A DNA stretch of 64,000 nt from Blastocatellia bacterium (GTDB lineage: Bacteria > Acidobacteriota > Blastocatellia > Pyrinomonadales > Pyrinomonadaceae), in assembly GCA_003168335.1 (NCBI GenBank), contig PMSM01000005.1, positions 310,001-374,000 on the forward strand. The letters run 5' to 3'. Numbering within the stretch: the stretch's first letter is position 1; every line of letters starts with the position of its first letter. A program made the translations under genes and the position numbers. The notes beneath the pieces are model-generated. The model had not been told where the DNA came from. It worked only from the letters and a program-made list of their open reading frames with translations, and searched no databases. Shown piece after piece: positions 1-18,079 of this stretch.

Positions 1-2277
1 TCGTCGAACAATACCATCGGCGGCCCAAGTGCCGGCTCAGGCAACCTCATTGCATTCAATACGGGAGCGGGCGTTTCATTTTTCTCAGGTATCAATAATG
101 CTATTCTCGGAAACTCGATCCACTCCAATTTTCAACTCGGCATTGACCTATTCAGTGGTGCGTTTGGCGTCACGCCGAACGACGACAACGTTGGAGATGT
201 CGATACCGGCCCAAACAATTTACAGAACTTCCCGGTAATCACGTCCGCTGTTTCCAATGGCGGTACAACGACCATCAAAGGCACGCTTGACAGCGCTTTC
301 AGCACGCAATTCAGACTCGAATTCTTCTCGAACACGGCTGCGGACTCATCGGGCTTCGGTGAAGGCCAAACCTTCCTGGGATTTGTGAACTCAGTAACCG
401 ACGCGAGCGGCAAAGCCAGTTTTACTTTCAACGTCCCGACAGCCAATGTCGTGGGAAATTTTTTCAGCGCGACGGCGACCGATCCGAACGGCAACACTTC
501 TGAATTTGCGGCCTCGGCTTCAGGCGTCGCCAACAGCCCTGGCACTCTGCAACTCAGTACCAATTCACAGCTGAAGTTTGAAAACAGCGGGAGCTTTACG
601 ATCAATGTGACGCGCACCAATGGCAGTACCGGCACCGTGACCGTTCACTACGCAACTGCCGATGGCACTGCCAAAGCGCCTTCAGACTACACCGGCACCT
701 CCGGCACTTTGACTTTCAATGACGGTGAAACCAGCAAGCCGATCACAGTCCCGATCATTGACGACAATACGCCCGAAGGGATGGAGTCATTCACGTTGAC
801 CTTGAGCAATCCGACAGGCGGCGCAGTCCTCGGGAGTACCACTTCTGCAAATCTTTTCATTCAGGACAACGAGGACCCCACGCTCTCGATCAGCGATGTC
901 TCGCAAGCCGAGGGCAACAGCGGCACGACTGCTTTCACCTTCACCGTGACATCGTCAAACGCGATCACCAACGATGTGAGTGTAAGTTATGCGACAGGCA
1001 ATGGCACTGCGACGGCCGGCTCTGACTACCAGACGACGAGCGGTTCGTTGACTATTCTCGCGGGTCAGACCTCAAAGACGATCACCGTGCTCGTCAATGG
1101 TGATACCACGAACGAGCCGGACGAAACTTTCTTCGTCAACTTGAGCAACGCCTCCAGCGCCACGATTACGAAATCTCAGGGCGTCGGCACCATCGTCAAC
1201 GATGACGGAGTCGCACCGCCCAGCCTGCAGTTTAGCTCGGCGAACTACTCTGTTCAGGAAGATCTGCAGGCGTTGACGGTCACGGTCACGCGCTCAGGCG
1301 ACACGAGTGGTGCGGCCAGCGTAAGTTACGCAACCGTCGATGGCACGGCGACACAGAAAGGTGATTTCGAATTGGCGGTCGGCACCCTCAACTTCGCTCC
1401 CGGTGACACGAGCAAGACTTTCCAGGTGCTGATCAACGAAGACATGTATGTGGAAGGTAACGAGACGTTCGGGTTGGCGCTCACCAATGCAAGTGGCGCC
1501 TCCATCGGTCAACAGGGCACCGCTACGGTGACCATCAACGACGACGTCCCGGAATCGCTGACCAACCCGATCGATGATCCGCAGAGCTTTGTCTATATGC
1601 AGTATCACGACTTCCTGGGACGCGAGCCGGACGCCACCGGCCTGCAGAACTGGGTCAGCACGCTCGCCGGCTGTCCCAACGGGGGTTTCGGGGAATTCGA
1701 TAATCCCAATTGCGATCGGGTCCACGTCTCGGCCGGCTTCTATCTCTCAGAAGAGTTTCAGGGCCGCGGCTATTGGGCTTATCGCTTCTACCAGACTAGT
1801 CTGGGCCGGGCGCCGCTCTATAAGGAGTTCATCCCGGACATGCTTAAGGTGGGAGGATCGCAGTCGCCGCAACAAGAGGTGGTCAACAAGCAAGCCTTCA
1901 CCGATGAGTGGGTGAATCGACCGGAGTTCAAGGCCAAGTATGATGCGCTCGTCAACCCAGTGGATTACGTTAACGCATTGATGATCACGACGGGGGTGAA
2001 TCTTCCTAACCACGATGCGCTGATCAATGCCCTGCAGAACAACCAGATGACGCGGGCCCAGGTCTTACGTGAGATTGTCGAGAGCAAGGAGGTGGACGAC
2101 AAGTTCTTCGTCCAGGCGTTTGTCTCGATGCAATACTTCGGTTACTTAAGACGTGACCCGGACACCACCGGATACAACAACTGGGTGACCACGCTGACCA
2201 ATGATCCCGGAAACTATCGGCACATGATCTTCGGGTTCATCTACTCGACTGAATATCGCCAGCGTTTCGGTTTCTGA
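1..2277 (+). CDS. Calx-beta / DUF4214 surface protein, 5' truncated by window edge
   Basis: The frame is open from base 1 (before the first ATG at 385) to a TGA at 2275-2277, so the N-terminus lies outside the window. The visible start resembles the end of a right-handed beta-helix (N-L-I-x-F-N and I-x-x-N-S-I-x-x-N patterns). Three Calx-beta-like repeats follow (DNA about 550-870, 880-1210, 1225-1545) with the usual Y-A-T-x-(D/N)-G-T-A, S-D-Y and F-x-x-G-(D/E/Q)-T-S-K motifs and E-x-x-E-x-F in each. The last 230 residues look like DUF4214, with two F-x-x-x-x-(G)-R-x-P-D-x-x-G-x-x-N-W motifs. This architecture is known from secreted or surface adhesin-like proteins; the substrate is unknown. 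Family calls are by eye. A terminator hairpin follows directly. Confidence 0.85.
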   Translation, partial: SSNNTIGGPSAGSGNLIAFNTGAGVSFFSGINNAILGNSIHSNFQLGIDLFSGAFGVTPNDDNVGDVDTGPNNLQNFPVITSAVSNGGTTTIKGTLDSAFSTQFRLEFFSNTAADSSGFGEGQTFLGFVNSVTDASGKASFTFNVPTANVVGNFFSATATDPNGNTSEFAASASGVANSPGTLQLSTNSQLKFENSGSFTINVTRTNGSTGTVTVHYATADGTAKAPSDYTGTSGTLTFNDGETSKPITVPIIDDNTPEGMESFTLTLSNPTGGAVLGSTTSANLFIQDNEDPTLSISDVSQAEGNSGTTAFTFTVTSSNAITNDVSVSYATGNGTATAGSDYQTTSGSLTILAGQTSKTITVLVNGDTTNEPDETFFVNLSNASSATITKSQGVGTIVNDDGVAPPSLQFSSANYSVQEDLQALTVTVTRSGDTSGAASVSYATVDGTATQKGDFELAVGTLNFAPGDTSKTFQVLINEDMYVEGNETFGLALTNASGASIGQQGTATVTINDDVPESLTNPIDDPQSFVYMQYHDFLGREPDATGLQNWVSTLAGCPNGGFGEFDNPNCDRVHVSAGFYLSEEFQGRGYWAYRFYQTSLGRAPLYKEFIPDMLKVGGSQSPQQEVVNKQAFTDEWVNRPEFKAKYDALVNPVDYVNALMITTGVNLPNHDALINALQNNQMTRAQVLREIVESKEVDDKFFVQAFVSMQYFGYLRRDPDTTGYNNWVTTLTNDPGNYRHMIFGFIYSTEYRQRFGF

Positions 2278-2299
2278 GGAACACTAGTCTCGCACAACG

Positions 2300-2329
2300 A
2301 AAACGGCCACCCTGCGGTGGCCGTTTTTC
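2300..2329 (+). terminator. Rho-independent terminator
   Basis: A perfect 9-bp stem (ACGGCCACC at 2303-2311 with GGTGGCCGT at 2316-2324), a 4-base loop CTGC and a run of T follow the stop codon of the Calx-beta/DUF4214 gene by about 25 bases. It should separate that gene from the sigma-factor cluster. Confidence 0.9.
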
Positions 2330-2673
2330 TTGATCATAACTCGATATTTCTCACGACAGAATGTCGTCATCATGGAGACTCAACGAGAATTAACACCAGA
2401 AACCAAGTCATAGGATGGCCCCTGAGGGCTTGGCGGATAGCTGCAAAAGGGAGCGACGGACTGCTGACTGTTGCCTGGCAGCCTCTCTGACCAGGGGACG
2501 ACCCTTCTTTACTTGGTTCGTGGCTAATCGCTATCCGGATCGAGTCAATCGGAAAGTCGAGGTTAATATGACACCCACTTGACGTGAGCTCGAATAACGG
2601 CATATTGATGCTAACCACCAGAAGTCTTATGCTCTCGAACGGCAACAGACATTGGTTTAGGACTGATCAGATA
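2330..2673. other. Intergenic stretch upstream of the sigma factor gene
   Basis: About 340 bases between the terminator and the chosen sigma-factor start. No convincing gene is visible on either strand; the reading frame of the sigma factor extends upstream to a GTG at 2584, but that extension has no recognisable domain. It presumably holds the sigma-factor promoter. I did not find here the bipartite element present at 3295, 7578 and 8364. Confidence 0.5.
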
Positions 2674-3297
2674 ATGAATGAGCCTTCCGTGAAAAAGGTC
2701 GAGCAGAAGAAGAACTGGACTCTTACTCCGCATGCATTTAAGCGGCTACTCGATTGGCTGGATGAAGGCACAAGTCCCGAAGGCGAAAAATACCTCGAGA
2801 TGCGGCGGCGTTTGACAGCTTACTTCGACCGCAAGAACTGCCCGGCGCCGGACGAACTGACGGACGAAACTTTGAACCGCGTGGCTCGCCGCCTGGAAGA
2901 AGAGGGCAATATCGTCAGCGAGACTCCGGCCCGTTATTGTTACATCGTGGCTCGCTTTGTGTTTTTGGAATACTTGCGCGAGCGGAACGATGAAGTACCA
3001 CTCGACGCAATCAACGGTCTCGCCGCCACGAACCAGCCCGCGGTGTCTGGGGCCGAGGATGAAAGCTTCCACCGCGAGCGCCTGCTGGCTTGCCTGGATC
3101 ACTGCACTGAAAAGTTGGATCCGACGCATCGCGAACTCATCGTCCGCTACTATTATGGTGAACAACGAATCAAGATCGACAACCGACTCGCTCTGGCAAA
3201 ACATTTGGGAATAACGGTGAATGCGTTGAGCATCCGCGCGTGTCGCATACGCGATAAGCTTGAGGTCTGCGTCAGAGAGTGTGCTCGTCCGGAATGA
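2674..3297 (+). CDS. ECF-like sigma-70 family RNA polymerase sigma factor
   Basis: A 207-residue protein from ATG 2674. The middle (about residues 60-110, R-Y-C-Y-I-V-A-R-F-V-F-L-E-Y-L-R-E) resembles sigma region 2, and the last 70 residues (L-D-P-T-H-R-E-L-I-V-R-Y-Y-Y-G-E then L-A-K-H-L-G-I-T-x-N-A-L) resemble the region 4 helix-turn-helix. This type is often found in Acidobacteriota beside anti-sigma-like and CHAT/TPR genes, as here. The frame runs upstream to a GTG at 2584 but that extension lacks domain similarity, so ATG 2674 is preferred. It probably drives the three matching promoter elements at 3295, 7578 and 8364; the first overlaps its own stop codon. The exact ECF group is unknown. 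Confidence 0.8.
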   Translation: MNEPSVKKVEQKKNWTLTPHAFKRLLDWLDEGTSPEGEKYLEMRRRLTAYFDRKNCPAPDELTDETLNRVARRLEEEGNIVSETPARYCYIVARFVFLEYLRERNDEVPLDAINGLAATNQPAVSGAEDESFHRERLLACLDHCTEKLDPTHRELIVRYYYGEQRIKIDNRLALAKHLGITVNALSIRACRIRDKLEVCVRECARPE

Positions 3298-3320
3298 AAT
3301 GTTTTTCTCGGTTTGTCTAA
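3295..3320 (+). promoter_or_regulatory. Candidate ECF-sigma promoter, copy 1
   Basis: TGAAAT at 3295-3300, a T-run at 3302-3306 and GTCTAA at 3315-3320. The same two-part element with the same 20-base offset occurs at 7578 and 8364. The upstream half overlaps the sigma gene's stop codon. A transcript from here would begin near 3328, so the TTG at 3313 cannot be the start of the next gene and ATG 3349 is used. The layout (TGAAA, T-tract, GTCT) resembles known ECF promoters such as those of SigW/SigX-type factors. Confidence 0.65.
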
Positions 3321-3348
3321 AAGAGTTGGAAGCAGTGTAAGTTCGAAA

Positions 3349-4350
3349 ATGAGCGAAGCGACCTACAACGAACAAGCAATGGCCGATTACCTGCTCGGCT
3401 GTCTACCCGGCGCGGAAGCTGAGCGATACGATGAATTGAGTGTCGCTGACGATGAGTTTGTGGCCGCCCTCAGCGCCTGCGAGAGGGATCTGGTTGACGC
3501 TTACGTGCAGGGAGAGCTTGCCGGACGGGCGCTGGAGCAGTTCAGGTTACATTATCTCGTTTCGCCGCTTAGGCGCGACAAGGTCGCCTTCGCGAAAGCG
3601 TTGCAGGCCTGTGCGGAACGCGGTGCGGCAGATGTCCGAAGCAAAGATGCAACCGATGGCGCGCTCAGACAAGGATGGTTCGCGGCGTTGAGCACGTTCC
3701 TCGCGCCGAGACCGGCATTGCAATGGGGCCTTGCCGCTGGCGTACTGATCCTGCTCGTTGCTGGCGGCTGGTTTATGATCGACAATCTGCGACTGCGTCA
3801 ACAGATGTCTCAGGCGCAGATCCGGCGAGATGAACTGCAGCAGCGCGAACAAGCATTGCAGCAGCAACTGGAAGCTGAACACGCAGCGAACTCAAGAGCC
3901 GAACAGGAACTGGCGCAAGTGCGCGCGGAGCGCGAGCGTTTGGACCAGGAATTAAAGCAGCAAAATGGGCAGGAACGGACGACGCAGCCGCCATCACTTC
4001 CAGGCCAAACCAGCATCGCTTCCTTCATTCTTACCCCGGGGCTGCGCGGTGTGGGGCAAATCCAGATACTTTCTATTCCGCCTGGCTCCCGTCGCGTGGC
4101 GTTGCAGCTAAACCTCGAACCCAATGATTACCAGGCTTACCGCATGGCCTTGATCGATCAATCCAATCATCAAACCCTTTGGCAAAGTGGCAGACTCAGC
4201 GCCCACTCTGGAGACAGCGGCAAAGCCGTCAGCGTCAATTTTTCCTCTGGTCTGCTCAAGCCTCAAACCTACGTCATACAAGTCTCTGGTGTTTCCGCGA
4301 ACGGCAAGATCGAAGTGATGAGTGACTATCCGTTCAAAGTCGTGAAATAA
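3349..4350 (+). CDS. Membrane anti-sigma-like regulator with coiled coil
   Basis: A 333-residue protein. The N-terminal 90 residues (Y-L-L-G-C-L-P-G-A-E-A-E-R-Y-D-E ... C-E-R-D-L-V-D-A-Y-V-Q-G-E-L) match the cytoplasmic module commonly found next to this sigma type, but lack the H-x3-C-x2-C zinc site of classical ZAS anti-sigmas. One transmembrane helix follows (W-G-L-A-A-G-V-L-I-L-L-V-A-G-G, about residues 125-145), then a Gln/Glu/Arg-rich coiled coil (about 150-210) and a beta-rich exported C-terminal domain (about 225-333). Position directly after the sigma gene and topology suggest it holds the sigma factor at the membrane and senses an envelope signal; that role is inferred. Confidence 0.65.
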   Translation: MSEATYNEQAMADYLLGCLPGAEAERYDELSVADDEFVAALSACERDLVDAYVQGELAGRALEQFRLHYLVSPLRRDKVAFAKALQACAERGAADVRSKDATDGALRQGWFAALSTFLAPRPALQWGLAAGVLILLVAGGWFMIDNLRLRQQMSQAQIRRDELQQREQALQQQLEAEHAANSRAEQELAQVRAERERLDQELKQQNGQERTTQPPSLPGQTSIASFILTPGLRGVGQIQILSIPPGSRRVALQLNLEPNDYQAYRMALIDQSNHQTLWQSGRLSAHSGDSGKAVSVNFSSGLLKPQTYVIQVSGVSANGKIEVMSDYPFKVVK

Positions 4351-4396
4351 TAGCGCCTCAACCCGACAGCCAATCTGGCAAGCACTGGGGCGCCAT

Positions 4397-7300
4397 ATGT
4401 TCAAGCGAATCGTCGATCACCCACAACCAAAGATATCGACCCGCAGAAGTCGGCGGTTTTTCGCGCTGTTCCTGATGACGTGCGGGCTTCAAGTCGCTCA
4501 CCCCACCACCATCAGAGCGCAAGGGCTCGATAGCGGAGCACAAAGTCCACCGGCAGCCACGGCACTTGAGTTGGGCAAGCCGATTGAGAGTGAAATCACC
4601 GGTGGACAGACGCAGAGCTATCAAATTACGCTGGCCAAAGATCAATTCGTCGACGTGACTATTCAACGCCGCGGGATCGCTGTGGTCGAGCAATTGTCCG
4701 CACCGGACGGCAAATCTATTGCGAGATTCGTTTCGGAGTGGCGTCCGGAGGTGACGGAGAGGGTCGCGTTTGTCGCCGAAACAGCCGGCGCGTACCGACT
4801 GGATGTCAGAGCGACCATTAGAGGATCCGTCGGCCGCTATGAGATTCAGATCGCGGAAATCCGCGCGGCGACTGAACATGATCGCTTGCTGCATGAGGCC
4901 CACCGCCTTAGCACCGAAGCCTCCACCCTCGGAACTGCTGGAAAGTATCAAGAGGCGGCTTCATTGGCGGCGCGGGCAGTCGGGTTAGCTGAAAAAGTGC
5001 TGGGGCCGAATGACGGCTTTGTCGGTTATCTACTTAATGATCTGGGAGCCTTCCAACGGAACGGAGGAGAGTATGTGAAGGCTGAAGCGACACTCCAACG
5101 CGCGCTGGAGGTCAATGAGAAAGCGCTGGGCCCGGACCATACGCAGACTGCTGACTCTCGGAACCGGCTTGGCTTGGTCTACCGATCGATGAACGATTAC
5201 CCAAAGGCAGAACGGCTGTTGCGGCAATCACTGGAGATTACCGAGCGAACCCTGGGTCCGGAACATCCGAGAGTGGTGGCGTTTCTGGACAACCTCGAGG
5301 CGGTTGAGTTCGACCTGGGTGATCTGACGCAAGCTGAACATGATCTCGAACGCGCGATAGCCATTGCCGAAAAAATACTCGAGCCCGATAGCGTTGATAA
5401 GGCAAGGCTACTCAACAATCTTGGGAATCTCTATCGCGCCCGAGGCGACTATGCGCGCGCCGAGCCACTGTTACTGCGGGCGCTGGCGATTTATGAAAAG
5501 AAGTTCGGTCTGGAGAACCCCAGGGTCGGTGACACACTGCAAAACCTGGGGATCATCGCGCGACAAAGAAAAGACTACGCGCGGGCCGTGGAGTTGTACC
5601 AACGAGCTTTGGCGATCAGAGAAAAGACGGTCGGACCGGAGCACCCAAATGTCGCGGCCCTGCAGAATAACATCGCCAATATCTATCACGCCCAACACGA
5701 CTATGCGAAAGCCCTCGAGCTGCAACAACGTGCGCTCCGCATCGCTGAAAAAGCCGTCGGCCCGTACCACGGCCTAACCCTGACCTTGCTGGCAAATATT
5801 GCCAGGACTTATATGGCCATGGGCGACATCACCAGCGCCATTCAATTTCAGGCCCGCGCAGAGACGGGCCAGGAAGTTGCCGTCGCTTTGGATTTAGTTG
5901 TTGGTTCTGAACGTCAAAAGCTTGCTTACGTCGACGACCTCGCTGAATCTTCCGCGCGCACCATCTCTTTGAATCTCAGCTTCGCGCCGAATGATCCAGG
6001 GGCAGCTAATCTGGCCACGCTGGTCCTGTTGCAGCGTAAAGGGCTGGTCCTTGACGCGATGTCCGACAGCTTCAATGCGCTGCGCCAACGATCGAATCCC
6101 GAAGATCAGAAACTACTTGACCAGTTGAATTCAACCGTCGCGAGGCTGGCCAAGCTGGCGCTCGACGGGCCGGGAAAGATGGAGCGCGAGGAATATCGGA
6201 AGGAACTCACGTCACAGGAAGAAGAAAAAGAAAAACTTGAAGCCGAAATCAGCGAACGTAGCGCAGAATTTCGCGCCCGGTCACAGACGGTTACGCTGGC
6301 GGCGATCCAGGCCGCCATTCCGACGAGTGCCGCGCTGATTGAATTCGCCACCTATCGCCCGTTCGATCCAAAGGCGGTTAACAATGACGAAGCCTTCGGC
6401 CAACCTCACTATGTTGCTTACGTCTTGCGCCGAGAGGGAGCGGCTCAGGGGAAGGACCTGGGTGACGCAAAAGCGATTGACAATGCGGTTGACGCCTGGC
6501 GCCAGGCGCTGCGCGACCCGCAACGCAAGGATGCACAACAACTCGCACGCGCCGTTGACGAGAAAGTGATGCGACCCGTCCGTGCGCTGCTCGGAGATGC
6601 GACACAACTGATCGTCTCACCCGACGGAGAGTTGAACCTGATTCCGCTGGCGGCCCTGGTTGACGAGCAGGGGCATTATTTGATCGAGCATTACTCTTTG
6701 AGCTATCTGACCAGCGGACGCGATCTTCTGCGCATGCGGGTGGCGCGCGAAAGCAGGAGCAGCCCTTTGGTTGTAGCCAACCCATCGTTTGGTGAGCCCG
6801 CAACCGAGCTGTTCGCAAAGACGAATGCCGGTGTGAAATCGACGACACGAAACAGCCGGCGCCGCAGCATCACGATTGGAAACGATTTGTCCGAAGTTTA
6901 CTTCGCGCCGCTGGACGGCACATCGCTGGAAGCGCAATCAATCCGGGCGCTCTTTCCCGACGCGAGCGTTTTGACCGGTGCTGAAGCGACAGAATCTGCT
7001 GTCAAACAAGTCAAAGCGCCGCGCATTCTGCACCTCGCCACCCATGGCTTCTTCCTGGCGGCACCGGCGACGGCAGCGATCGGATCTCCACCGCCTGGAG
7101 AGCGAAGTATCAACGCCAGCGCTGAGATCGAGAATCCGTTATTACGTTCGGGTCTCGCTTTCTCCGGAGCCAATCTTCGCCACGGCAGCAATAACGATGA
7201 TGGAATTCTTACTGCACTTGAAGCCTCAGGCCTGAATCTGTGGGGTACGAAACTGGTCGTCTTGTCTGCTTGCGATACCGGCGTTGGCGAAGTGCGAAAC

Positions 7301-7564
7301 GGCGAAGGCGTTTATGGTTTGCGCCGCGCTTTCGTTTTGGCCGGCGCCGAATCTCTGGTCATGAGCCTCTGGCCGATCAGCGATTTCACGACCCGCGCAT
7401 TAATGACCAACTATTATCGAAACCTCAAACAAGGCATGGGCCGCGGCGAAGCGCTGCGGCAAGTGCAACTTGGCATGCTCAAGCGAAACCCGAACCTCCA
7501 TCCCTTCTATTGGGCCAACTTCATTCAATCCGGCGACTGGACCAACCTCGATGACAAGCGCTGA
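4397..7564 (+). CDS. Exported TPR-CHAT domain protein (caspase-like peptidase fold)
   Basis: A 1055-residue protein. An arginine-rich start and a hydrophobic segment ending I-R-A-Q-G (about residues 20-42) form a signal peptide. Residues about 60-150 look like a beta-sandwich pre-peptidase-like domain. About seven tetratricopeptide repeats of the 42-residue kinesin-light-chain type (A-L-x-I-x-E-K-x-L-G-P-x-H-P) span about 165-470. A helical linker with a charged coiled coil (about 570-640) leads to a C-terminal CHAT domain with the catalytic pair His883 (H-L-A-T-H-G-F-F) and Cys959 (S-A-C-D-T-G). CHAT proteins are C14-like peptidases, some acting in defence or cell death; an exported one beside a sigma/anti-sigma pair points to an envelope role, not established. 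The start ATG has only a weak GGGG upstream. Confidence 0.85.
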   Translation: MFKRIVDHPQPKISTRRSRRFFALFLMTCGLQVAHPTTIRAQGLDSGAQSPPAATALELGKPIESEITGGQTQSYQITLAKDQFVDVTIQRRGIAVVEQLSAPDGKSIARFVSEWRPEVTERVAFVAETAGAYRLDVRATIRGSVGRYEIQIAEIRAATEHDRLLHEAHRLSTEASTLGTAGKYQEAASLAARAVGLAEKVLGPNDGFVGYLLNDLGAFQRNGGEYVKAEATLQRALEVNEKALGPDHTQTADSRNRLGLVYRSMNDYPKAERLLRQSLEITERTLGPEHPRVVAFLDNLEAVEFDLGDLTQAEHDLERAIAIAEKILEPDSVDKARLLNNLGNLYRARGDYARAEPLLLRALAIYEKKFGLENPRVGDTLQNLGIIARQRKDYARAVELYQRALAIREKTVGPEHPNVAALQNNIANIYHAQHDYAKALELQQRALRIAEKAVGPYHGLTLTLLANIARTYMAMGDITSAIQFQARAETGQEVAVALDLVVGSERQKLAYVDDLAESSARTISLNLSFAPNDPGAANLATLVLLQRKGLVLDAMSDSFNALRQRSNPEDQKLLDQLNSTVARLAKLALDGPGKMEREEYRKELTSQEEEKEKLEAEISERSAEFRARSQTVTLAAIQAAIPTSAALIEFATYRPFDPKAVNNDEAFGQPHYVAYVLRREGAAQGKDLGDAKAIDNAVDAWRQALRDPQRKDAQQLARAVDEKVMRPVRALLGDATQLIVSPDGELNLIPLAALVDEQGHYLIEHYSLSYLTSGRDLLRMRVARESRSSPLVVANPSFGEPATELFAKTNAGVKSTTRNSRRRSITIGNDLSEVYFAPLDGTSLEAQSIRALFPDASVLTGAEATESAVKQVKAPRILHLATHGFFLAAPATAAIGSPPPGERSINASAEIENPLLRSGLAFSGANLRHGSNNDDGILTALEASGLNLWGTKLVVLSACDTGVGEVRNGEGVYGLRRAFVLAGAESLVMSLWPISDFTTRALMTNYYRNLKQGMGRGEALRQVQLGMLKRNPNLHPFYWANFIQSGDWTNLDDKR

Positions 7565-7577
7565 TTCTGTAGTGCGC

Positions 7578-7603
7578 TGAAAGGTTTTTCTCAAACGCTC
7601 TTA
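7578..7603 (+). promoter_or_regulatory. Candidate ECF-sigma promoter, copy 2
   Basis: TGAAAG at 7578-7583, T-run 7585-7589 and CTCTTA at 7598-7603, the same 20-base offset as copies at 3295 and 8364. Transcription would begin close to 7610, making the ATG at 7609 unlikely as a start and favouring ATG 7669, which has its own ribosome site. Confidence 0.6.
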
Positions 7604-7668
7604 CCAACATGAAGAAGCGAGAAACGGAAGTTCTACCCAGAACTGGAAGATCACTCGAGGTGCGATCC

Positions 7669-8298
7669 ATGGCATTGAAGATTGGGGTTCTCTTTTGCGT
7701 TAGTTTGGTTGTCGTGTGCTGCTGCGGCTACCAACTGCCGAACTCTGATTCGCAATTCCAGTTGCCGTCCGCGGCGCCGCTCCAGAACCCGCCGCCGACT
7801 CCCGAACCTACGCCGGCCGAGGACTCTGCACGCTACGTCGCCTGGATGGAGAAGCAAGGAAAACCGCTTACCGATAAACCCCACGAGGTTGTGTCGCTGC
7901 GCCTCGGTGATTGGGGCTTTTTCTATCACGGCGATCGGCCCGTCGGCAGTTGGAGGCCGCTTATGGACAGAACCGCCGTTGATCGTTCGGGCCACGCCGT
8001 GACGGAGACTGAAAATGGCGACTGGTTCGCTTTGCTCAGCACCAGCGGTCTGGACGCCGCCAGCGCTCTCAAACGAGTTGCCTGGCTGTTCAACGCCGAT
8101 GGTCTCGTCCCCACCGCTGAACCCCGAACCGCAAGACGAGACAAGCTTACCGCACCGGCGTTAACCACTAGAGATGGCGCCATCACATTCCAGGGCTGGT
8201 GCGAGGCGCACTCGGACCCGCCGTACGAAATGCGAATCACGATCGTCGCCGCCACCAAGGGAACCAAGCTGGTCGTCGACTCCGCTGGTAAACTGTAA
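7669..8298 (+). CDS. Small exported protein of unknown function, possible lipoprotein
   Basis: A 209-residue protein from ATG 7669, which has GAGG 8 bases upstream (7656-7659). An in-frame ATG at 7609 would sit at the predicted transcription start. Residues 1-20 form a hydrophobic signal segment ending V-V-V-C-C-C-G, reminiscent of but not a perfect lipobox, so lipid anchoring is uncertain. A Pro-rich linker follows (T-P-E-P-T-P) and then a globular region with no family I recognise. It is preceded by the shared ECF-type promoter, so it probably belongs to the same regulon as the anti-sigma-like gene and the next gene. Confidence 0.7.
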   Translation: MALKIGVLFCVSLVVVCCCGYQLPNSDSQFQLPSAAPLQNPPPTPEPTPAEDSARYVAWMEKQGKPLTDKPHEVVSLRLGDWGFFYHGDRPVGSWRPLMDRTAVDRSGHAVTETENGDWFALLSTSGLDAASALKRVAWLFNADGLVPTAEPRTARRDKLTAPALTTRDGAITFQGWCEAHSDPPYEMRITIVAATKGTKLVVDSAGKL

Positions 8299-8363
8299 TC
8301 AGCCGAATCTAAAGTCGGCACATTGTGAGAAGGGCTCTGGGCAGAGTCCTCATCTTCCGCGCG

Positions 8364-8389
8364 TGAAATGTTTTTCCTGAATTGTCTTA
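8364..8389 (+). promoter_or_regulatory. Candidate ECF-sigma promoter, copy 3
   Basis: TGAAAT at 8364-8369, T-run 8371-8375 and GTCTTA at 8384-8389. The block TGAAATGTTTTTC is identical to that at 3295 and the 20-base offset is the same in all three copies. It shows that the ATG at 8368, inside the upstream half-element, is not the start of the following gene. Confidence 0.65.
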
Positions 8390-8409
8390 TCCAGACACAG
8401 GAGGGAAAA

Positions 8410-9666
8410 ATGAGGAAGACTTCATCGTTAACCACTGTGCTGTTCGTTGGTCTGTGGCTCGGCATGCAGACAGCGTCGGCACAACTGCCCATCAAAATAA
8501 AGGTCCCGAAAACCAAATCCGACCCAGCCTCAAGTCAGCCCAAGCAAACCAGTACCGACGATGATCGTTCAGCATCTCGGTCAGATACGGCGGCCACAAC
8601 GGGAACAGCAAAGCCGAATGGATCGGGTGCAGGTCGGATCTACGTCGATCTTCATCCCACGAATAAGCCCTTGTGGGTCAAAGACTCGATTCGGATCAAG
8701 GCCAAAACACATGACGAATACTGGAAATTGCCGAACGAGCGGAAATACTCAAGCTGGGTCCCGACCCTGAGTTTCGATCTCTTCTACGACAACAAAACGG
8801 ATATCAATTACGTCGCGGAGTATTCGAACCCGGATGGATCTTCCTGGTTCACCGAAGAGTTGGACCATAGCACCTACGATCCCGCTCCGGAAACCGGCAC
8901 CACCAACTACCACAGCAAGGACGCGTTCAACAACCTCCAGACAAAGTCCTCCGCGGCAATCGGAACCTATAGCGTAAAGATTAAGAACCACGCCACGGGC
9001 GAAGTCGTCTATCAAGGCAAATTCAAGGTCAACAAATTCCGCTGGGACGACAATCCGCAAGACAAGAACAAATTCGATTTCTTCGTCGAACACGATTGGC
9101 TGCTGCCGATTGGTTACGTCGGCTTTAATGAAAACACCGGCTTTGATTTCGGCGCCAAGCCAATCGACGTGAGCGTCTGGCTCAAAGGCAGCATCGACCG
9201 AGCCGACCTGGAAGCCCGCGTGTTTTTCAAAGGTCAGCAGATCGCTACGACGAATAATGGCGGCATGGCGAATCGCACCGAAGAGATCGGGACCGAACAC
9301 AGCATCTACACCACGGATGTTCACGATTGGAAACTCTGGCATTTCGAGTGGATGAAAACATTCCTCTACGACAACAGCGGCGAGTTTAATCACGCCAACT
9401 ATCCCGATGCCTTTTTTGCCGACAAGAACCCGGGCGACTATATCGTCAAGATTTATCGCAAGGGAATCCAGGTGCGCGAGTTGTCATTCAGTATCGGCCC
9501 TGACAGCCGAATAGCTAGTGGCGGCTATGAAAAGCCGATGACGCTCACTGAATACAAAGTGATGGTGCCCGTTAAGGTGATGGGCGCGGCGGAAAAGTGG
9601 AACCCAACTTCATGGCAGACCGACGCCTTCTACGGCAATCCTTTGACGGGTTTCAGTGTGCCATAG
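8410..9666 (+). CDS. Secreted protein of unknown function
   Basis: A 418-residue protein from ATG 8410, preceded by a strong GGAGGG ribosome site at 8400-8405. A signal peptide (about residues 1-24, ending T-A-S-A-Q) is followed by a Ser/Thr/Gln-rich spacer to about residue 75. The remainder has many aromatic and Asp/Asn residues and probably two beta-sandwich-like halves: each ends in a G-x-Y-x-V-K-I-(K/Y) phrase (at about residues 190 and 355), suggesting an internal duplication. I do not recognise a named family. Its promoter is copy 3 of the shared ECF-type element, linking it to the sigma/anti-sigma/CHAT genes. Confidence 0.7.
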   Translation: MRKTSSLTTVLFVGLWLGMQTASAQLPIKIKVPKTKSDPASSQPKQTSTDDDRSASRSDTAATTGTAKPNGSGAGRIYVDLHPTNKPLWVKDSIRIKAKTHDEYWKLPNERKYSSWVPTLSFDLFYDNKTDINYVAEYSNPDGSSWFTEELDHSTYDPAPETGTTNYHSKDAFNNLQTKSSAAIGTYSVKIKNHATGEVVYQGKFKVNKFRWDDNPQDKNKFDFFVEHDWLLPIGYVGFNENTGFDFGAKPIDVSVWLKGSIDRADLEARVFFKGQQIATTNNGGMANRTEEIGTEHSIYTTDVHDWKLWHFEWMKTFLYDNSGEFNHANYPDAFFADKNPGDYIVKIYRKGIQVRELSFSIGPDSRIASGGYEKPMTLTEYKVMVPVKVMGAAEKWNPTSWQTDAFYGNPLTGFSVP

Positions 9667-9723
9667 CGCTCTTGTGATCTGTGGCAGCGATGTTAACGAG
9701 CTTAGGCTGATCGAGGGGACACG

Positions 9724-12700
9724 ATGAAATTCCGCCAGTCAAGGGTGTCGTCAAGCAACCCTCTCGCAAGGTCGAAGGGGCTAGCCCTCATACTGGTTTC
9801 GATCCTCTCAATGCCATCCACGGTGTTTGTGCTCCCAACCATCGCGGCCTCTCGTGCGGTCGTGATTTCGAAACGCAGCACGTCGATCTTTGTTGAGCCG
9901 GCGCACCAATCGGAGAAAAGCCAACCCGCCGCGGTAGCAGGCGCCACGATCGTAGTTACGGATCTCACCCAGAAGATTAGCAGCAGCGGAGGCTGTTCGT
10001 TGCCGGAGGCGATCTACTCCGCGAATTTCGATCGCAACATCGCCATTGACTCAACCAGCCCCGATCACTTCATCACCACAAACTGCGCCGCGGGTAACGG
10101 GGATGACACCATTGTCCTGCCAGCGGGCGCGGTATTTCAGATGAGCGGTATCATCGCTGATGCGTACAATCCGTTCGGACCCACCGCCACGCCCCTGATC
10201 TTTTCGAATATCGATATCGAGGCCAACGGCTCAACATTGCAGCGAGTGTCGACCACGGAAACCTATCGCGCATTCGCAGTCGGCACTGCTTCCATTAATC
10301 TTCCGAACCTCGGCGGAACAGCCACGACTGTCTCCGGAACTGGTGAACTGAGGATCTCAAACGCCTACATCAAGAACTTCAAAGCCAAGGGTGGCAACGG
10401 TGCCGGTGGCGGCGGTGGCGGCATGGGCGCGGGCGGTGCCATCTATCTTCAGAGCGGCGAACTGACACTCGTCAACAGCACGTTCGAGGGCAACGCTGCG
10501 CTTGGCGGCAATGGCAGTGATGAGGTCACATCGTTTCCCGAGCCCGGCGGCGGCGGTGGTGGCCTGTCGGGAAATGGCGGCGCGGCCGTGAGTAGTGGCA
10601 GCGGGGCCGAGGGCGGCGGCGGCGGCGGCGGCGGATCGAGAGGCAATGGTGAAGCGAATGGTGACGGCTATGGCGGTGGTGGCGGCGGGACATACGTGGA
10701 TGGGCTTGGCGAAAATGGTGGTTTTCGATGTGGGGGCACCGGCGGCCACTTCAAAGTTGGATTTCCCGGAAATGTGGATGCCACCGATGGTTCTTGCGCA
10801 GGTGGCGGCGGCGGCGCCGGCGCTGCACCTCTGATTGGACAAGGTTTGCCCTTTCCGCTCGGCGGCGACGGAGCGAACGGAAATTATGGCGGCGGCGGCG
10901 GCGGTGGCGGCGTTCTGGGTCCCGACATCGGCGAAGCTGGAGGCAATGGTGGCTACGGCGGCGGCGGCGGTGCTGGAGCTCATGACGGCGACGGCGGCAA
11001 TGGCGGCTTCGGTGGTGGTGGCGCCGGCGGACATCATTCCGGGAACGGCGGATTGTTCGCAGCAAATGGCACTGCGGACAACGGACACGGAGCGAACGGC
11101 GGCGGCGGCGCCGGCCTTGGCGGCGCTATCTTTAACGAGAGCGGTACGCTCATGATCTTCAACAGCACATTCACTGCGAATACAGCGTTCGGCGGAGCGG
11201 GCGGAGACAGTGCAACCAGTGTGACTGCCTCCAGCGGCGACGGCCAGGGCAACGCGATCTTTTCGAGAAACGGAAGTACTGTCATAACGCACGCTACGGT
11301 TAACAATAACGGGGGCGGCATTGACGTTAACGATCCGGTGGATGTCGCGATTCTCGGTGACGGTGCGAATGCATCATTGAGTCTCAACAATACAATTCTC
11401 AGAAATAGCCTTGGGGCCGCCCCGAATGGGGAATTCTTCACCAACAATGGTGGCTCCGTCACGCAAAATAATTTCGGAAATCTGATCGGGCACAATGGCG
11501 CGAGCAACGGCACCGGGAAGTTCACTGGCGTCGTTACTTCTATTAACCCGCAACTGTCATCAACACTCGCACTAAACTTTCCCGGAAACACTCCGACATT
11601 TGCTATTCCAATCGATACCAGCTCGGCTTACAACTCGGCTGAGAAGTTGAGATGCCTGCCCACCGATCAGCGCGGCATTCCGCGTAAGTCCGGTGGCTGC
11701 GATATCGGCGCGTATGAGCGTAATGACGTCGCCCAGAGTGGATCGACTCTGCAGGTCAACACCACCGCCGATCATGATGATGGAAGCTGTGGTTTGGTTG
11801 ACTGTACACTGCGCGAAGCTATCTCGCGTGCGAACGCGAACTCCGGCACTGACACGATCACCTTCGCAAGTAATGTCACCGGAACGATCACCTTAAGTAG
11901 CGCTCTCGGAACCCTGACTGTTCTCGATTCTGTGGTAATTGCGGGACCAGGCGCCAGTGTCTTGAATGTCAGCGGCAATTCAAGCATCCGGGTGTTCAGA
12001 TTCGGCAGCGGAATCAGCACGATGTCAGGGCTTAGGATCCGCGACGGCGTTCCTCCTAACAATACGGGCAACACGATCGGCGGGGGTATCCTTAACCAGG
12101 CGACGCTGACTCTGAATGATTGTGAACTCATCTTAAACGACGTGCATGCTGCCAATGGCGCCTCCGCCGGAACCGATGGCCTGGCGGCCCAGGGTGGCGC
12201 CATCTTCAATAGCGGAGTGCTGACCCTAAACCGTTGCCGGATCAGCGGCAACCTGGCACAGGGCGGCGACGGTGCCGCGAACACGGGTGTATCCCACGGA
12301 GGCAACGGCGGTGTAGCCCAGGGAGGGGCCCTCTATAACAACGCCGGCGCAATCTTGAGTGTCAACAATTGCACGTTCTCATCCAATGGCACTCTGGGCG
12401 GGTCGGGTGGTTCAAATGCATTCTTTGGCGGCGGCAATGGCGCCAACGGCAGCGGCGGCGCGATTGCCAACGCTGGCACGATGACTATGACCGCCGGCAC
12501 AATAAGTGACAACACTGACTTCGGTGGCAATGCCGGACTGGGAAATAACTCGTTCAATAACGGCACGGCAGGAAGCGGCGGTGGCAGCCTTGCATCTCTG
12601 GGTGCCGGTGTAAGCACAGTGGGTAACACCATTATTGCCGGCAACAACCGCAATCGTGGAGTGGGTCCAGACGTCGCTGGGACGTTTGCTTCAGCAGGTT

Positions 12701-13554
12701 ACAATCTAATCGGTATTGGCGACGGCAGCACCGGGTTTCCCGTCACGGGCGACCAGGTAGGCACAACGAGCGCGCCGCTGGATCCAAATCTCGGACTGCT
12801 TCAAAACAACGGCGGCCCCACTGCGACGATGGCCCTGCTTTCCGGAAGCCCCGCCATTGATAAGGGGAAGAGGTTTGGACTGCCGACCGATCAGCGTGGT
12901 TTCGCGCGCACCTCAAATGATCCATCAGTTACCGACGCGACCGGCGGAGACGGCACGGATATCGGCGCCTTCGAGGTGCAAGTAGCCGCGCCAACACCAA
13001 CACCAACACCAACGCCGACACCGACGCCAACACCAACACCGACACCGACGCCCACACCAACGCCAACACCGACGCCAACGCCAACACCGACGCCTACACC
13101 CACACCTACACCCACACCTACGCCCACACCTACGCCCACACCTACGCCGACACCGTCAGCGTCCCCAATTCAACTTCTTCTGGACACGTCGGATCCAGCA
13201 ATTGACCAGGCCGCTGCATTGGACTCATTGCTATTTCTAAGAGATCCTTTCCCCGTTGTTAATGACGCAGATTTGCTCAATCTGGGAGTTGACAGAAACA
13301 CCCGAGTGATTATTTTCTTAACAAACCTTCAACTAGCGCAAGGCGAAACTTCTTCCTCAATTGTGGTTAATCTATTCGATAGTAATAACCAAAGCTACGA
13401 CGTAGCAGCGGAAGACGTGCGGTCGGTCCCTGGCTTCGACTTTACGCAGGTGATTTTCAGATTGCCGGACAATCTGCCCGCTGGAGCCTGTGTCATCCGC
13501 GTCAGAGCACATGGCCAAGTCACGAATCCGGGCACTCTTAGAATCCGGCTTTAG
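9724..13554 (+). CDS. Large secreted beta-helix protein with Gly-rich and Pro-Thr repeats (CSLREA type)
   Basis: A 1276-residue protein with GAGGGGA 5 bases before the ATG. Order: signal segment (about 15-45); first CSLREA-like motif (G-G-C-S-L-P-E-A-I, about 92); beta-helix with a glycine-dominated insert (DNA about 10387-11140); a second CSLREA motif ([15 protein letters not shown] about 11800); a second helix with repeated G-G-A-I-x-N and A-G-T-M-T-(M) rungs, each half closing with T-D-Q-R-G-(I/F)-x-R and D-I-G-A-(Y/F)-E; a long Thr-Pro repeat; and a C-terminal Ig-like domain (13180-13554) resembling the TIGR03437-type domain frequent in Acidobacteriota. It is most likely a cell-surface or extracellular adhesin-like protein; the ligand is unknown. 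Confidence 0.8.
10387..11140 (+). repeat. Glycine-rich low-complexity coding segment
   Basis: Inside the beta-helix gene, dense GGC/GGT codons encode runs of four to eight glycines spaced by Asn, Ala and Asp (G-G-N-G, G-A-N-G). Hydrophobic strand phrases such as [16 protein letters not shown] appear at its borders, so it looks like expanded loops of beta-helix rungs. The minus strand carries long unstopped shadow frames because of the base composition. Confidence 0.75.
12988..13158 (+). repeat. Thr-Pro tandem repeat (ACA/ACG/ACC-CC hexamers)
   Basis: About 28 head-to-tail six-base units of the form ACNCCN encode an uninterrupted (Thr-Pro)n stretch between the beta-helix and the C-terminal Ig-like domain. 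It is probably an extended wall- or envelope-spanning linker. Tracts like this are prone to slippage, so its length may vary between strains. Confidence 0.9.
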
Positions 13555-16078: not shown

Positions 16079-18079
16079 CTAAAATCGCTGGGGATTCATC
16101 GAAATGATATCTGTCGCGGCCTTGCGCACCTCCTGAGAAGCATCTTTGGTAACAGCGTCTCTTACCAGTTTGCCGGCCGCGGGAAAGGCTTGATGCACCT
16201 TCCAAAGATTGCTCAAGAGCGCCAGCCGAACCTTGTCATTCTTGTCTTGTAGAAACGCCCGCTTTTGCGCCTCAAAGGTGCGGCCCGTCATTTGTCGAAA
16301 TCCCAAAGCTACTGCCGCTTCCAATCTGACGGCGCCTTCCGGATCAGAAGTCAGAACTCTGGTCAATTCTGCATCGACTCGCTCCGAAGCGACCCAGCGC
16401 AGCGCTAATGCAGCAGCCGCTCGCAGCGCAGGCGAAGGATCGGACATGAATCGGATGATCGTTGAATATGCATTGAACGATCCCGCGTTACCCAGCGCCA
16501 GAAGCGCTTGCCTGGTTGCGTCAACCGAAAGCGACGACTCGATTTGCTTTATGAATAACTCTACGATCTTCGTCGCGCGTTCCGGAGAGGTTCCAGCGAG
16601 GTTGCGCGCCATCGTACCCAGCGTAAGCTGGGCAGTAAAAGCAACGTCGGCATTGGCGGACCGAAGGGCTAAATCCCGCACGGTGTCTTCAGCAAGTTGT
16701 GACGGTGAACTTGGTTCGTTCAGCGCCGGAACGAGCATGGAAAGCGCCGGCCAGTCCGTGGAGCGGGCGCTAATAGCACTTACCAGAGCTGCCTGCGCTT
16801 CTTGATGGCCTACTGCGCCCAGTGCGCCTGCCAACACTCGCATGGTCAACCCCTTCGCGGGCGCCGTCTCGAGGATCTTTCCAAGCGGCGCGCTCGATTC
16901 CGGGTGCAGGTAAATCAGCGCTTTGAACTTGAGATAAAGCGGCGTCTCGTCCCTTTCGCCAGACGACGACTCCAAGTTTGAGAGGTCAGCGAGTAGACTT
17001 TGTAAAGTTGCGCCTCCCAACTCAGTGCGTTCTATGCTCAGCTCGCTATCTTCTTTGGATGTCGTAACGGATAACGGAACGGCCGCCACAAGCTTTGACC
17101 GTTGTGAACTGGCCTCTCGCATCGCGGCCAGTTTGGCCGGGTCTAAAATCTCCCTGCCTACGTAATCTAATCGAACAGCATTTTGAGCCCGTCCGACGGT
17201 CTTACCACCCATCTCAATCGTCTCGGATTCCGTTCCGCTCAAATTAAGGACACGGCCGGCTCGCAGATCGAAGTTTGCCGTCAATTCTCCCTTTGGCGTA
17301 ATAACAGTTGCCAGGTTGAATTCGTCCGGCCCAGGTTTTTCGATCGCCGGAAGATAGCGAGTCTTGACCTTTCGGAAGGTCCTTAGACTTGGCTGAGCCG
17401 CCCTGTGCCTGTTTGAACTCGGCTCGGCTTGTTGATAGCGCGCGATGTACTGTCCGTTCGGATCGTCTTCCTGCGTTTCCCATTGGCTGCGGTTGGATGA
17501 AGGAGGGCTAGGAAAAACAAATTGCGTGACCGCGATCAGGGCTCGCGCGAAGTTCTGTGAAAGGGTGTTTGCGGCGGGATCGCACCGAACCGAAAGCACT
17601 TTGCCCTGGCGACTGACGAGCGCGAACACATCCCTGCCCAGATCCTTCTTAATCGTCTCGGCCTCAGCCTGAGCGGCTTGTCCATTGGCGATTAACCGTA
17701 CCGCAGAATTGCGCAGACTGTAGGCGACGAGAACGTTATCGCTAAATAGATCGAGGACGCTGACCGTAAACTCGGCCTGGACAGTTGTCTTGAAAGATTG
17801 CGCGAGACCCAAGGGACCTGGCTGCGCCTTTTGATCCCCTGCGCCTAAGAGTGGCCCGAAGTTTGACTCAGACGCGCTTGTGTAATTGAGCCGGTAAATA
17901 ATGCGCTCGGCCATTGTGAAGTGATAGACGGCTGGATCAAGTGAAACTGACGCGGCAGATGAAAGTGCAGCTTTCGGGAGCGATTGAGCCTCGCAACTCG
18001 CGATCCTTGAAAGCTGCAACACGACCGCTAATACACAAAGGACTGCCGCCGGCACGCGCACGTTGATTATTCCAACCAA
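16079..18079 (-). CDS. Exported HEAT-repeat protein with vitellogenin-like (lipid-transfer) layout
   Basis: About 666 residues. The frame is open upstream to 18379, but that part is out of frame with, and inside, the next gene, so I place the start at TTG 18079 (AGGCGG just upstream; GTG 18061 is an alternative). A hydrophobic export signal (V-P-A-A-V-L-C-V-L-A-V-V-L, ending S-C-E-A-Q) is followed by a beta-rich N-domain (about 45-350) and a helical repeat array (about 370-660) with L-L-A-L-G-N-A-G-S-F-N-A-Y and L-R-A-A-A-A-L-A-L-R-W. The order beta barrel, then helical superhelix with A-L-G-N-A-G, resembles eukaryotic vitellogenin/MTP lipid-transfer proteins. That resemblance is by eye. It follows the minus-strand neighbour by 37 bases and is probably co-transcribed. 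Confidence 0.65.
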   Translation of the reverse strand: MVGIINVRVPAAVLCVLAVVLQLSRIASCEAQSLPKAALSSAASVSLDPAVYHFTMAERIIYRLNYTSASESNFGPLLGAGDQKAQPGPLGLAQSFKTTVQAEFTVSVLDLFSDNVLVAYSLRNSAVRLIANGQAAQAEAETIKKDLGRDVFALVSRQGKVLSVRCDPAANTLSQNFARALIAVTQFVFPSPPSSNRSQWETQEDDPNGQYIARYQQAEPSSNRHRAAQPSLRTFRKVKTRYLPAIEKPGPDEFNLATVITPKGELTANFDLRAGRVLNLSGTESETIEMGGKTVGRAQNAVRLDYVGREILDPAKLAAMREASSQRSKLVAAVPLSVTTSKEDSELSIERTELGGATLQSLLADLSNLESSSGERDETPLYLKFKALIYLHPESSAPLGKILETAPAKGLTMRVLAGALGAVGHQEAQAALVSAISARSTDWPALSMLVPALNEPSSPSQLAEDTVRDLALRSANADVAFTAQLTLGTMARNLAGTSPERATKIVELFIKQIESSLSVDATRQALLALGNAGSFNAYSTIIRFMSDPSPALRAAAALALRWVASERVDAELTRVLTSDPEGAVRLEAAVALGFRQMTGRTFEAQKRAFLQDKNDKVRLALLSNLWKVHQAFPAAGKLVRDAVTKDASQEVRKAATDIISMNPQRF

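Follow-up and report, generated by a model that had tools for sequence, protein, structure and literature searches.

The stretch analysed here (the window) comprises 64,000 nucleotides (nt) of Blastocatellia bacterium contig PMSM01000005.1 (assembly GCA_003168335.1, family Pyrinomonadaceae; positions 310,001 to 374,000 of the forward strand), and near its beginning a cassette of genes, all on the + strand, surrounds three copies of one sequence motif. The gene for an extracytoplasmic function (ECF)-like sigma factor of 207 amino acids (aa; 2674..3297, ATG at 2674, TGA stop at 3295-3297) is followed by those for a 333-aa anti-sigma-like membrane protein (3349..4350), so called from its position beside the sigma and from structure prediction, a 1055-aa TPR-CHAT (caspase-like) protease (4397..7564; PF12770 at E 6e-83, plus TPR families), a 209-aa exported-protein candidate (7669..8298) and a 418-aa exported protein (8410..9666). 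The motif, TGAAAKGTTTTT-N8-STCTWA or, written out, TGAAA(T/G)-GTTTTT-N8-(G/C)TCT(A/T)A, has three exact copies in the 64 kb, all on the + strand (3295-3320, 7578-7603 and 8364-8389), with an offset of 20 bases between block starts in each. It occurred zero times in 100 shuffles of the window. Pattern, positions and offset are exactly those given in the original prediction, which had been made from the letters alone and took the copies for promoters of a local sigma regulon. Very probably, the ECF-like sigma encoded at 2674-3297 uses all three copies as promoters, and its regulon in this genome numbers at least six sites.

Each copy has the layout of a promoter: a -35 block, a T run and a -10 block. 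The junction promoter (3295..3320, +) reads TGAAAT and GTCTAA, the second (7578..7603, +) TGAAAG and CTCTTA, and the third (8364..8389, +) TGAAAT and GTCTTA; they scored 26.5, 20.5 and 29.5 bits, respectively, with a profile of 43 sites taken from relatives, to which this genome contributed none. The 43 aligned sites carry 31.9 bits across 26 columns, in two conserved blocks at fixed spacing. Their core elements are GAAAT at -35, not AAC, and GTC at -10, not CGT, as in the early ECF promoter rule; later ECF classifications have dropped AAC/CGT as a requirement, according to a section of PMC8103513. Past the -10, near the expected transcript start, conservation continues more weakly (a T and then TGAA, 7.3 bits in all) in alignment columns 27-40, corresponding to 3321-3334, 7604-7617 and 8390-8403 in the window. 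A search for sigma-70 type promoters in 2200-9800 yielded 4, versus 3.4 in shuffles, and an RNA element was rejected as an explanation, with no Rfam family at gathering score within the window.

We then extended the search to the complete genome of 5.16 Mb. A pattern in which two bases were free (the sixth and the first of the -10) occurred four times, its reversed form not at all. Allowing up to two mismatches gave 21 sites, of which six had at most one mismatch, namely the three window copies plus C12:282529, C14:973611 and C14:974944; the reversed control gave 8 sites, against the remaining 15 here. The relatives-only profile likewise returned six sites at E <= 0.0022, three in the window, one on contig C12 and two on C14, and no others below 0.01. 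Because three further sites lie on other contigs, a strictly local regulon was rejected, and of the predicted local sigma regulon it is the link between sigma and promoter, not the restriction to this locus, that gains support.

That support comes from the co-occurrence of motif and sigma across genomes. Close relatives of the sigma were found in 17 genomes, this one included, the other 16 at 51-67% identity. Among 119 genomes of the family, the strict motif was present in 8 of the 15 that have the sigma and in 2 of the 104 that lack it (Fisher p 3e-7; reversed control, 1 match). In one of the two exceptions (G007) a CHAT homologue (50%) lies just before the motif on a 3.2-kb contig; the match in the other (G028) looks like chance. 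When 60 relatives were searched with a loose pattern, the 8 genomes having the sigma gave 22 sites, the 52 lacking it gave 4, and the reversed pattern gave 5 over the whole set. At E <= 0.01, the profile matched all 17 genomes with the sigma versus none of 17 chosen genomes without it (best 0.0395), and six genera hold both states. At 12 loci of sigmas with only 35-44% identity, no profile match was found at E <= 0.5. Two distant sigma genes (L047 and L049, 38-41% identity) end in TGAAAT followed by T-rich sequence, with a different -10.

The placement of the sites is also that of promoters. At E <= 0.01 the profile has 64 matches in the 17 genomes. As judged with a crude gene caller, 45 of these fall between genes and have a gene beginning on the same strand no more than 250 nt away; for the opposite strand the count is 2 of 64, and for random positions 1109 of 20,000. 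This is the enrichment upstream of genes that the original prediction had proposed to look for. In at least 5 of the 64 the offset is 21 bases, and both blocks are retained in these variants from relatives. At the six sites of this genome the chosen start codons lie 28, 65, 20, 115, 87 and 109 nt past the -10. The geometry had been thought to fix three starts in the window. This holds for the ATG at 3349, which follows the -10 by 28 nt, and for that at 8410, which has an AGGAGG; for the second target gene 7669 is preferred over 7609, the first ATG, which would sit nearly at the transcript start. The choice of 7669 is the better one because in the relative G034 the ATG equivalent to it opens the long frame, which the equivalent of 7609 does not. 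At E 0.001 Pfam gave no match for the slightly longer frame from 7609.

The first promoter lies between the sigma gene and the anti-sigma-like gene, and the TGA of its -35 is the sigma stop codon. Between sigma stop and anti-sigma start, the match is strong in 14 of the 17 genomes (equalled by no more than 1 of 200 shuffles), weak in G001 and G132, and absent from G120. In 9 of the 17 (including G001 with its weak match) the block TGAAAT or TGAAAC begins with the sigma TGA, and the same overlap of stop codon and -35 occurs at L153, outside this set. Junctions of two sigmas at 53-55% identity (L163:1054-1080 and L171:10502-10528) combine GTCTTA and a stop-codon overlap with a TGAC -35 and a 21-base offset, possibly a change of promoter code. 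Upstream of the sigma gene, in contrast to the junction, no match with fewer than 5 mismatches was found in a stretch of up to 300 nt in the 16 testable genomes, and positive autoregulation was therefore rejected. Since the motif stands at the junction and not upstream of the sigma, the sigma should drive expression of its inhibitor and, probably, of the protease, not of its own gene. Because the anti-sigma promoter excludes the sigma gene, the loop would be negative, closed through the anti-sigma-like protein, and not the usual positive one; a part of PMC8103513 describes ECF genes as usually positively autoregulated together with their anti-sigma. A GC-rich hairpin followed by T (2302-2325), after the upstream Calx-beta/DUF4214 gene, is terminator-like by eye, though absent from a computed list, and the sigma may therefore have its own promoter in 2330-2674.

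The sigma itself matches NCBIfam TIGR02989 (E 3.6e-9) and TIGR02937 (sigma70-ECF; E 1.4e-6, over model positions 28-163 of 165), both under the curated cut-offs, and has no Pfam match at E 0.001; for these reasons we take it for a divergent member of the ECF sigmas (group IV), small proteins that have the sigma2 and sigma4 regions only. A sequence search at E 0.01 found no relatives among solved structures. Six cysteines (residues 89, 140, 144, 190, 199 and 203) are invariant in 16 aligned sequences, possibly as a metal or redox site.

For the 333-aa neighbour, no Pfam family reaches its cut-off, and sequence comparison with solved structures gave weak matches to a long helix (best E 0.0087). 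AlphaFold2 (mean predicted local distance difference test score, pLDDT, 82; predicted template modelling score, pTM, 0.36) predicts a helical N-terminus, then a long helix that takes in a hydrophobic (membrane) segment as well as a coiled coil, and finally, at the C-terminus, an Ig/FN3-like beta domain. The best structural match of the beta domain (Z 8.6 over 87 residues, root-mean-square deviation 2.8) is at a level that may reflect merely a common arrangement. Helices are predicted in residues 8-104, mostly with high confidence; matches in the structure search all concern the C-terminal beta domain, so the missing anti-sigma fold in those lists carries no meaning. A homologue was detected at 26 of 31 loci of related sigmas. 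Its position suggests that this protein inhibits the sigma.

In the 1055-aa protease, the catalytic dyad His883/Cys959 is kept in all 24 aligned sequences, the window's included, and most of these have a signal-like N-terminal segment (by eye), from which the protein is probably exported. This genome has three CHAT matches in total. A search of the cassette proteins with PADLOC gave generic TPR and MukB-like matches and none named Csx29 or Csx30 (whether its library contains models for these two was not checked).

The cassette has a recurring order: sigma, promoter, anti-sigma-like membrane protein and exported TPR-CHAT protease, then further promoters. In all 17 genomes a CHAT gene stands behind the sigma, with the anti-sigma-like gene between them (assigned in G013 by position and not by BLAST, and with a broken frame in G029), and a CHAT homologue lies within the retrieved flanks of 30 of the 31 sigma loci. 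Among the 12 more distant sigmas (35-44% identity), 7 have CHAT directly before the sigma. The 19 named close-sigma loci (51-72% identity) comprise 8 from Pyrinomonadaceae, one from Chthoniobacterales (Verrucomicrobiota) and the rest with acidobacterial labels, all from metagenome assemblies. At L168:10001-10826 the first 91 sigma residues (72% identical) are followed, about 20 bases on, by the last part of a CHAT gene; this junction is a deletion or an assembly chimera.

The genes downstream of the sites are more variable; the cassette is the constant part, and the targets vary among genomes. In the window, the copies precede the anti-sigma-like gene and two genes for exported products, as had been noted, except that the third product, with 418 aa, is not small. 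The 209-aa protein has a hydrophobic N-terminus and homologues in G034 (85%) and G001 (56%). The 418-aa protein consists of a signal peptide, a QLPIKIKVPK segment, a linker and a beta-rich domain, modelled with low confidence (pLDDT 54). All five targets of this genome other than the anti-sigma-like gene encode hydrophobic, signal-like N-termini (heuristic), and in three of them the signal peptide is followed by a short stretch of similar sequence (QLPIKIKVPK, QIRIGGITVPNP and QINIRGISIPKP). When the genomes are taken together, a simple heuristic marks 32 of the 49 distinct proteins encoded downstream as exported-looking, versus 43% of 342 neighbouring genes (p 0.002). In relatives, the targets include VgrG (directly in G120, and in G077 behind the TPR gene that follows a site), peptidoglycan-binding proteins and TPR proteins. 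In G056 (L079:11223-17063) a site is followed by a gene for a 60-aa peptide and then by an MvdD-type ATP-grasp, a peptidyl-prolyl isomerase (PPIase) and a C39 peptidase transporter, which we read from sequence as a graspetide-like cluster, with a leader-like start of the peptide. VgrG and the peptide cluster hint at contests between bacteria. The 418-aa family was rejected as a regulon marker, as only 10 of the 49 family genomes having it (of 119) also have the sigma.

Two further observations concern target genes. The target behind C14:973611 is split by a frameshift in this assembly (L074:8101-8524; G000:C14, about 973100-973523); in G001 and G139 the orthologues each occupy one frame, of 444-445 aa. 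In the window, 9724-13554 encodes a protein of 1276 aa that contains choice-of-anchor Q and CSLREA domains as well as an extended TPTPTP repeat; its gene begins 57 nt past the last target gene, has no motif of its own and possibly belongs to the same transcript.

A number of results weigh against reading of the motif by this sigma. The strict motif is missing from seven of the 15 family genomes that carry the sigma, and 19 of the 64 profile sites are not intergenic with a nearby gene start. The 17-versus-17 comparison is partly circular, because 16 of the 17 genomes supplied profile sites; its independent parts are this genome, the sites outside the loci used, and four new loci (L153, L163, L168 and L171), which all contain a profile match. 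The junction promoter is missing in G120 and only weak in G001 and G132, and at L163 and L171 it fits the consensus poorly, with GTCTTA at the stop kept and a different -35. One genome with no close sigma (G003) has a weak 16.2-bit match (C14:17085-17118) just upstream of a gene of the 418-aa family, in which homology begins at 17332. In addition, the enrichment of signal peptides among targets is modest, and the 418-aa family (E <= 1e-8) occurs in 39 family genomes without the sigma.

We also weighed whether something other than the neighbouring sigma could account for the motif. It might be the operator of another DNA-binding regulator, encoded elsewhere and controlling both the sigma cassette and the targets; a conserved spacer (CCCGAA) and the TGAA near the transcript start indeed exceed the needs of two ECF blocks. 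Such an operator is unlikely, however, in view of the two-block layout with its T run and -10-like GTCTWA shortly before gene starts, the retention of both blocks in the 21-base variants, the way in which the motif tracks the presence of this sigma within genera, and its abutting the sigma stop codon. Alternatively, one or more sigma paralogues might read the motif, the neighbouring sigma being merely one reader. A second related sigma is present in this genome (C13, 38% identity), and the gene ends at L047 and L049 as well as the weak match in G003 are in line with such a paralogue. It is nevertheless improbable, since none of the 12 loci with sigmas at 35-44% identity showed a profile match and the 17 genomes without a close sigma had none at E <= 0.01, most of them having such paralogues. 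Finally, short A/T-rich blocks match easily and chance matches emerge at two mismatches, yet the absence from shuffles, the conservation of the same positions in G034 and of the junction in other genera, and the dissimilar flanks of the three copies (by eye) make chance or repeat-derived similarity extremely improbable.

Taking the neighbouring sigma as the reader of the motif, the system would work as follows. The sigma gene would be transcribed from elsewhere and not from a motif promoter. Once freed, the sigma would activate the junction promoter and with it the anti-sigma-like gene and probably the TPR-CHAT gene, which we infer to be co-transcribed, while the other promoters would drive genes for exported-looking products. 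The inhibitor would thereby be produced in proportion to sigma activity and shut the response down. By analogy with Csx29 of the Craspase system, the CHAT protease is a natural candidate for releasing the sigma and would act outside the inner membrane; our hypothesis is that it cleaves the anti-sigma-like protein.

To our knowledge, few regulons have been worked out in Acidobacteriota, and a literature search (titles and abstract openings, few subscription journals) found no publication describing this cassette. The present data offer this phylum a defined sigma, a probable promoter code and targets, testable in E. coli.

We finally compared the cassette with known systems, as described in excerpts of the papers cited. 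In Corynebacterium glutamicum, a SigH-dependent promoter inside the sigma coding region likewise drives only the anti-sigma RshA, and fast shut-down has been proposed as its role (PMC3489674). That system belongs to another lineage, housekeeping promoters there also transcribe the sigma and anti-sigma genes together, and the excerpt mentions no CHAT protease. CHAT-domain proteins also occur near the sigma genes of group ECF54; in the portion of PMC8999054 concerned, this group is listed without an anti-sigma, with a Geodermatophilus example, whereas here an anti-sigma-like gene follows the sigma. In E. coli RpoE-RseA-DegS the analogous step would be the proteolytic removal of the anti-sigma; there, however, the sigma promoter is autoregulated in a positive loop, and DegS is not called caspase-like in the excerpts of PMC10028731 and PMC8103513. 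CalpL/CalpT/CalpS also has a protease that cleaves an anti-sigma and frees an ECF sigma, but this one is of the Lon type and activated by cyclic tetra-adenylate (PMC11417357). The Craspase locus of type III-E CRISPR has a TPR-CHAT protein (Csx29) beside an ECF sigma and a sigma inhibitor (Csx30), as well as copies of the sigma motif within the locus; Csx29, which works with the RNA-guided Cas7-11, cleaves Csx30, and this is thought to relieve CASP-sigma (excerpts of PMC10028731). Here, by contrast, the N-terminus of CHAT is signal-like, and a membrane protein whose beta domain lies outside is the candidate for the inhibitor. It is tentatively conceivable, if rather doubtful, that our cassette is a CRISPR-free, envelope-located counterpart of the Craspase switch, a portable response module that gains targets in each lineage. 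An exported TPR-CHAT would then sense an external cue and cleave the outer domain of the membrane anti-sigma, and the freed sigma would re-induce inhibitor and protease together with changeable weapons or defences (in relatives VgrG spikes, peptidoglycan-binding cargo and a graspetide-like peptide cluster), with the module's promoter, which carries the sigma stop codon within its -35, acquiring new targets each time. Altogether, the repeated association of a sigma with a membrane inhibitor and an exported CHAT (a CHAT homologue at 30 of 31 loci) suggests that caspase-like control of sigma factors may extend beyond the CRISPR example.

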